A stretch of DNA of 64,000 nucleotides. It comes from an uncultured Dehalococcoidia bacterium. GTDB taxonomy: Bacteria > Chloroflexota > Dehalococcoidia > Lucifugimonadales > GCA-2712585. Position 1 is the stretch's first letter. Every line of letters begins with the position of its first letter. Below are positions 56,192-57,560 of this stretch, one piece after another. The notes under the pieces were generated by a model. The model searched no databases and had not been told where the DNA came from. It saw only the letters and a program-made list of their open reading frames with translations. Both the position numbers and the translations under genes were made by a program. Location of the stretch: the NCBI GenBank assembly GCA_958295715.1, contig OY282371.1:124001-188000 (forward strand). The letters are read 5' to 3'.

Positions 56192-56318
56192 GGGTGTCCT
56201 CCTCGGTTCGGGATTCGCCCATTGTACCGCAAACCAAGGGGCGCGCGCCTTTTGGTTTGGGGAAGGGGTGAGGGGCTTTCCCGTCTCCCAGTTTCGTCAT
56301 TCCCGCCCTCCCCTCTCG

Positions 56319-57329
56319 TCATTCCCGCGCAGGCGGGAATGTGAATTCACATTTCAAGTGCAACACCTTGTTCCAGAAAGTTTCGGCTGGGGTCCGGTAG
56401 TCCAGACACTTGCGAGGGGTCTGGTTGTAGGCTTGGACCAGTTGGGTGAAGCGCTCCTGGGACACCGCCGCCAGGTCGGTCTTGCGGGGCAGGGTGCGCC
56501 TGAGCCGGCCAATGGCGTTCTCCACGCCGCCCTTCTGCCAGGGGGAGCGGGTGTCGCAGAAGAAGGTCTGGATGCCGAGGGCGTGGAGAAGGTGGTGGCG
56601 GGCGAACTCCGTGCCGTTGTCGAAGGTGACCGTCTGGCGCCACTCCTGGGGCAAGGGACCCAGGGCCTCGGCTATGGCCATGGCGATAGGCTCCGCGGCC
56701 TTCCCCGGGGGCCGTAGGGCTATGAGCAGGCGGGTGCAGCGCTCGTGGAGGATGAGGACGACTTGGCCGTAGGCGCTGAAGAGCATGGTGTCGGCCTCCC
56801 AGTGACCCGGCTTCTGGCGGTCATCCGCATCCTGAGGACGCTCTTCCAAGGGAAGGCGGTCGGGGATGAAGGACACAGAACTGCCGCCCCTGCGCCCCCG
56901 CCAGCCTCGTCTGGACTTGCGCCGGGGCAGGTAGAGCCGCCACGAGTAGTCCTTCCTGCGGGCTATCTGGGCGTAGATGAACCGGTAGATAGACTCATGG
57001 GAGATGACCGTCCTTCCCTTCTCCAGGGCCAGCCGGCCCGACACCTGCTCCGGGGACCAGCCTAGCTTGAGACGGGCGAGGACATCCTCCCGAAGGGTGG
57101 GGTCGCGGGTCAGCCGGTGACCGTGCCAACGGCGGGCGTGGGCCTGTTGGTCGGCGTACTTGGGCCGGTAGGCGCCATTGGCCGAAGGATTGCGCTTCAA
57201 CTCCCGAGCAACCGTTGATGGCGAGCGATCCAGAGCTGACGCGATTTGGCGGAGGGAGCGTCCCGTGGCATGTAGTCGGGCAATTTCACACCGTTCCACA
57301 ATGTCGAGCTGCGTGTAGTGGAGTCCCAT
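56319..57329 (-). CDS. IS30-family transposase
   Basis: The 336-residue protein has an N-terminal HTH (GRSLRQIASALDRSPSTVARELKRN) and the DDE core: GHWEADTM, VTFDNGTEFARH and KGGVENAIGRLRR. This is the IS30 family. ATG at 57329 has GAGGTG 5 nt upstream. The reading frame runs through the left inverted repeat without a stop. It ends in the flanking palindrome (FPPARE then TGA at 56319-56321), so the last residues and the stop codon come from the insertion site. Confidence 0.96.
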   Translation of the reverse strand: MGLHYTQLDIVERCEIARLHATGRSLRQIASALDRSPSTVARELKRNPSANGAYRPKYADQQAHARRWHGHRLTRDPTLREDVLARLKLGWSPEQVSGRLALEKGRTVISHESIYRFIYAQIARRKDYSWRLYLPRRKSRRGWRGRRGGSSVSFIPDRLPLEERPQDADDRQKPGHWEADTMLFSAYGQVVLILHERCTRLLIALRPPGKAAEPIAMAIAEALGPLPQEWRQTVTFDNGTEFARHHLLHALGIQTFFCDTRSPWQKGGVENAIGRLRRTLPRKTDLAAVSQERFTQLVQAYNQTPRKCLDYRTPAETFWNKVLHLKCEFTFPPARE

Positions 57330-57373
57330 GGCAACACCTCAATTAAGTGTTGCACTTCGTTTGTGAGTTTAGC
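56341..57373 (-). mobile_element. IS30-family insertion sequence inside a dRS3-like repeat
   Basis: A 1.03-kb element with imperfect inverted ends sharing AAGTGCAACAC next to TCACA (left 56342-56366, right 57347-57371). It starts directly after the palindrome ATTCCCGCGCAGGCGGGAAT (56321-56340). The repeat's usual continuation (CCATCC) is found on the other side after GAAT (57374-57377), so a short duplication (GAAT or less) flanks it. The transposase is intact. Confidence 0.88.
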
Positions 57374-57560
57374 GAATCCATCCCCTCCCCCCTTGTTGCG
57401 CCGGGGAACCGCGTATCGGCGGGCGTCATACGGATGAGCGTCCCGCGTTGGAAGCTCCGGCTTCCCGCCCGCCCTCTTATCCGTGATGGTTGGATGGTCT
57501 GTTCATCTGATGAGAGGAGAGAAGATGGATTCCCGCCTGCGCGGGAATGACGGATGGGAT
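57374..57560. repeat. Right half of split repeat and a further palindrome
   Basis: 57374-57400 continues the repeat that was split by the IS. A palindrome lies near 57529, preceded by GTCTGTTCATCTGATGAGAGGAGAGAAGATGG, which matches the inverse of 53330-53355. 57561-57672 holds only the leader of the ggt gene. Confidence 0.8.

Follow-up and report, generated by a model that had tools for sequence, protein, structure and literature searches.

An IS30-family insertion sequence in the stretch of DNA analysed here (the window: 64,000 nt, C1:124001-188000 of a 2.40-Mb Chloroflexota genome in two contigs, probably from the SAR202/Dehalococcoidia part of the phylum) lies inside a dispersed, interrupted palindromic repeat, at a position and in an orientation shared by most of its relatives, and its transposase gene, which contains no stop codon within the element, terminates on a TGA supplied by the repeat. 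The fixed position and orientation very probably reflect recognition of REP-like repeats by the transposase of this IS30 lineage, the stop being a by-product on which the gene seems to rely. In window coordinates, the features are:

56340..57373, minus strand (transposase strand): IS30-family insertion sequence, 1,034 bp, delimited by alignment of the five copies in this genome and identical copies elsewhere
56319..57329, minus strand: transposase ORF, 336 aa, with HTH_38 at residues 4-47 and DDE spacing D180-(56)-D237-(32)-E270
56319..56321, minus strand: TGA stop of the transposase, lying beyond the IS in the GTCAT arm of the target repeat
56322..56339, minus strand: last six transposase codons (FPPARE), 18 bp of target repeat
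56318..56339, plus strand: left part of the interrupted palindromic repeat, GTCATTCCCGCGCAGGCGGGAA
57377..57380, plus strand: right part of the interrupted repeat, TCCA, following the duplicated GAA
56337..56339: target-site duplication GAA, left copy, its size set by flank co-variation in copies L043, L045 and L046
57374..57376: target-site duplication GAA, right copy
56340..56366, plus strand: terminal inverted repeat on the 3′ side of the transposase, TGTGAATTCACATTTCAAGTGCAACAC, translated in frame as LHLKCEFT
57347..57373, minus strand: terminal inverted repeat on the 5′ side of the transposase, GCTAAACTCACAAACGAAGTGCAACAC

Membership in the IS30 family, proposed in a reading of the sequence alone (hereafter the sequence-only reading), is confirmed by the match of the transposase to the NF033563 profile (NCBIfam transpos_IS30; E=6e-71, 239 bits, with a cut-off of 80). 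The HTH_38 domain occupies its N-terminus, and the DDE triad fits the family spacing of about D(54-61)D(33)E (PMC2516522), with the second spacer one residue short. The terminal inverted repeats (27 bp, imperfect, with AAGTGCAACAC in both) and the 3-bp target duplication fall within the IS30 ranges of 20-30 bp and 2-3 bp, respectively. The C-terminus reads ...LHLKCEFT-FPPARE-stop: in-frame translation of the terminal inverted repeat gives LHLKCEFT, and FPPARE together with its TGA is host repeat GTCATTCCCGCGCAGGCGGGAA on the minus strand, just as had been claimed for a frame without a stop inside the IS that terminates in the repeat. The element had been placed at 56319-57377, which is the right place, though its bounds are refined by the alignment; similarly, it was correctly described as inserted inside a palindromic repeat, but the final T of the ATTCCC...GGGAAT seen at the left junction is the tip of the IS.

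When up to three mismatches are allowed, the interrupted repeat GTCATTCCCGCGCAGGCGGGAATCCA has 754 matches in the genome, 375 of them forward and 379 reverse, while its reversed pattern, used as a control, has none. All five full IS copies (97-100% identical) occupy one and the same repeat base and are oriented alike, with ...GCGGGAA on one side and GAATCCATC on the other, and their outer flanks are unrelated directly beyond the repeat. Since 754 matches compare with no matches for the control, and five copies out of five agree in base and orientation, chance is excluded as the source of the association. The same position and orientation are retained by a left-end and a right-end fragment (L006 and L007), and a search of the genome revealed no further IS30 transposase. 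One dead copy, L005 (G000:C1:1467245-1468299), has lost a single base at the junction, and its transposase frame is broken; the TGA on which this frame terminates belongs to the following repeat, 39 nt further. No copy in this genome lies in unrelated sequence, nor is there an internal stop codon that is mutated only in the window, and the expectation of a common repeat position and orientation is upheld. Across the order, the repeat is patchy, being found in 49 of 147 genomes; the four further genomes of the order in which the IS was detected (G181, G241, G266 and G284) contain at least 45 copies each. Its sequence varies by lineage (TTCCCGCCTGCGCGGGAA, CCCGGATCAAGTCCGGG, TCCCGGCCTTCGCCGGGA, CCCTCGCTTCGCTCGGGA), and its usual layout, TGGRTYC:C-stem-loop-stem-(T/C)GAC, with the colon marking the insertion point, is constant across lineages, as is the base at which the IS is inserted.

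Relatives of 45-76% identity were gathered by a scan of genome contigs and by whole-genome searches. They come from Chloroflexota and at least five further phyla, represented by Nitrospirota, Zixibacteria, Binatia, Nitrospinota and Alphaproteobacteria; plasmid records yielded no relative at E 1e-60. Both ends were located for 82 full copies, the IS and its relatives taken together. About 70 of the 82 are found at palindromes that are equivalent but differ in sequence: the 3′ end of the IS is directly followed by a hairpin with a stem of 5 bp or longer in 62 copies (about 3% would be expected by chance), and about 8 more have imperfect versions of it. The 3-bp target duplication is likewise present in 62 of the 82. 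At these sites the 3′ end of the IS faces the palindrome, the mirrored arrangement being limited to one degenerate copy, and a single repeat point is used by 3/3 copies in genome G408 and by 5/5 in Sphingopyxis (G410). About a dozen full copies, five of them in one Nitrospirales chromosome (G400), have no repeat on the 3′ side, and most of these also have no target duplication. IS30 elements cause deletions and rearrangements adjacent to their ends, and most of the repeat-less copies look like the outcome of such events. Copy L032, however, has kept its target duplication in unrelated sequence, so the specificity for the repeat is strong but not absolute.

The exact ends could be fixed with the aid of three G408 copies (L043, L045 and L046), which are 100% identical over 1,034 bp and occupy one TGGATTC repeat and two TGGGTCC repeats. 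Their 5′ and 3′ flanks co-vary, TGGA(TTC)-IS-(TTC)CCG versus TGGG(TCC)-IS-(TCC)CCG, and because the duplicated bases follow the individual repeat while the element itself is invariant, both IS ends are defined and the copies represent separate insertions. A 4-bp duplication (GAAT) would be compatible with the copies in the window's own genome, but is ruled out by L019-L024 and by L043/L045, in which the duplication is 3 bp.

With respect to the end of the reading frame, the copies fall into three classes. In class A (47 copies), the frame is open and the TGA is located exactly 18 nt beyond the IS, in the TGAC of the repeat. In class B (13 copies, after two of the 15 listed by script, L031 and L075, were removed by hand as not being at clear repeats), the frame is also open, but the repeats end in CGAC and provide no stop at that point, leaving tails of 27-645 nt. 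In class C (5 copies), a shifted frame runs into a TGA that belongs to the inverted repeat of the IS itself. The remaining frame, which would have neither an internal nor a repeat-supplied stop, is absent from all intact copies, and no frame-0 element has a stop inside the IS end. The target-supplied stop, seen in the intact copies of this genome and in most relatives, depends on the repeat variant, being present with TGAC and absent with CGAC. The three identical G408 copies have tails of 183, 171 and 42 nt, indicating that recent transposition continued without a borrowed stop; since the listed G408 repeats are nearly all CGAC, these copies do not descend by decay from class A, and post-insertion decay of TGAC to CGAC is ruled out for this genome. 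The existence of copies at repeats without a stop indicates that a borrowed stop is not essential, and the lineage is probably active or recently active.

The linker that joins the last conserved motif to the inverted repeat measures 6, 9, 12, 15 or 18 nt in open-frame copies and 7, 16 or 19 nt in closed-frame copies. On a transposase tree with many weakly supported branches, linker length has changed, by a rough count, at least 14 times and the frame only twice. This suggests selection for either of the two frames that terminate close to the IS boundary, although selection on the last residues would look alike. A stronger version, according to which the IS30 lineage gave up its own stop and depends on the dispersed repeat, with the gene correctly bounded only after insertion into a proper target, seems unlikely; if true, it would couple target choice to the form of the transposase and possibly to its activity. 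Were the IS ends joined in a circle by a 3-bp spacer, the frame would stay open for 389 codons before reaching a stop.

Under the preferred explanation, the transposase itself would recognize short, widespread REP-like palindromes, which on the transposase strand read TGGRTYC:CCG-loop-CGGGRA(T/C)GAC, and would make a fixed staggered 3-bp cut in the TGGRTYC arm; transposition would proceed via the joined-ends intermediate typical of IS30. The IS would be inserted with its 5′ end toward TGG and its 3′ end toward the palindrome. Because the frame is open across the 3′ inverted repeat, it would be read on through the 18-nt palindrome, and in the cell translation would normally end at the TGA of the conserved TGAC. 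Orientation would then be set by target recognition and not by the supply of a stop, which would come free to a gene that grew to rely on it; a stop occurring by chance farther downstream could take its place.

The sequence-only reading had instead suggested that orientation is selected: insertions would arise in both directions, and only those provided with a stop by the repeat would be functional and kept. Such selection would agree with the 47 copies that terminate exactly on the repeat TGA, with the absence from intact copies of the one frame that has neither stop source, and with linker changes that are almost all in frame. It would not, however, act on classes B and C, which would then be expected in both orientations, and all 13 copies at stop-less CGAC repeats and all five with internal stops share the standard one. 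Identical and recent copies exist without a borrowed stop, and dead copies (L005, L071) are likewise in the standard orientation. The only mirrored insertion, L096, uses the same TGG-side cut site with the IS flipped; it is degenerate, the most diverged of all (45% identity), and has a stop in its own inverted repeat. A stop-driven orientation is thus not supported by these classes, and we consider it improbable. Somewhat less probable still is a function of the repeat-encoded tail as a target-derived transposase C-terminus, beyond mere stopping. In many copies the frame is indeed kept through the inverted repeat and the 18-nt palindrome to yield six extra residues, but these vary widely (FPPARE, PGSSPG, SRPSPG, GPLAQE), following nothing but the repeat DNA, and in other genomes they give way to tails of 9 to 215 residues. 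Spread of copies by recombination or duplication between repeats, with the shared position inherited from one ancestral insertion, could draw on the repeats as abundant homologous patches, but is ruled out for practical purposes by outer flanks that are unrelated right beyond the repeat, with no long shared flanks, by G408 duplications (TTC/TTC versus TCC/TCC) that match individual repeats, and by the use of different repeat sequences by different lineages in different phyla.

Insertion at a fixed point of a REP-like repeat places the element alongside the REP-targeting IS (ISPsy8, ISPpu9/10, ISRm22, IS621, IS1397), all copies of which occur at one point of the REP (PMC1525189). The five copies in the window's own genome conform to this pattern (type 1 of Tobes and Pareja), as do those in G408 and G410, with Nitrospirales G400 as an exception, and the 3-bp duplication is shared with ISPsy8 (PMC1525189). 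The families covered by that survey are IS3, IS110, IS4, IS256 and IS5, with IS30 absent, and nowhere does the survey use the term “stop codon” (PMC1525189). IS30 is known to favour near-palindromic hot spots or its own ends (PMC9333248). The window element resembles IS30 and IS1655 in its IS30-scoring transposase, DDE spacing, 27-bp inverted repeats and 3-bp duplication, but appears to differ from the IS30 members described in the literature examined in that it enters a dispersed repeat at a single base and in a single orientation, and that its transposase gene lacks a stop codon within the IS. The dRS3 repeats of Neisseria, present in about 700 copies and serving as targets for a filamentous phage, have the ATTCCC(N8)GGGAAT pattern (PMC3898611), which is also seen here, although Neisseria belongs to a different phylum from the present host.

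Transposase stops located in the host insertion site are a feature of IS870-type elements of the IS630 family. The same is true of ISLxc2 and ISLxx4 (IS481 family), with NCTAGN as the site in ISLxc2 (PMC2516522). In ISLxc2 and ISLxx4 the stop lies in the short duplicated target, whereas here 18 nt and a whole palindrome separate it from the IS, and it depends on the repeat variant. While REP targeting and target-borne stops are each known in other IS families, their combination in IS30 is apparently new: we found no description, in the literature examined, of an IS30 member inserted at REP or other dispersed repeats or having its stop in the target, although that literature does not include the IS1655 target work (Kiss 2007), so that a prior report is possible.

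IS30 would hereby join the families that home on REP-like repeats, with about 70 natural insertions in which both base and orientation are fixed. The combination of TGAC and CGAC repeats with open and closed frames constitutes a clean natural experiment in which target recognition can be told apart from selection on the transposase C-terminus, and DDE transposases specific for both site and orientation are uncommon and of practical interest. The common repeat layout in distant phyla also raises the question of its spreading agent.

Several minor observations concern the IS ends and the repeats. In most relatives, the outer inverted repeat at the IS 3′ end, GGTGGATTCACA, includes TGGATTC, as does the target flank TGGATTCCC, and a single DNA-binding domain may possibly read both. 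A diverged relative from an uncultured Dehalococcoidia (L077, the same as L102) ends in LSCLTLEPT in place of LHFKCEST; its frame still terminates on the same repeat TGA, suggesting that target use outlasts the sequence of the inverted repeat. In the window, the palindrome ATTCCCGCGCAGGCGGGAAT is found at 29 sites with up to two mismatches, often grouped at a spacing of about 97 bp (e.g., 48045, 48143 and 48240). A second version, TCATTCCCGTGAAAACGGGAATCCA, is common in the same genome near the main one (e.g., C1:4019-4043). The related repeat of G408 frequently forms opposite-strand pairs about 95-100 bp apart, resembling BIME/REPIN pairs.
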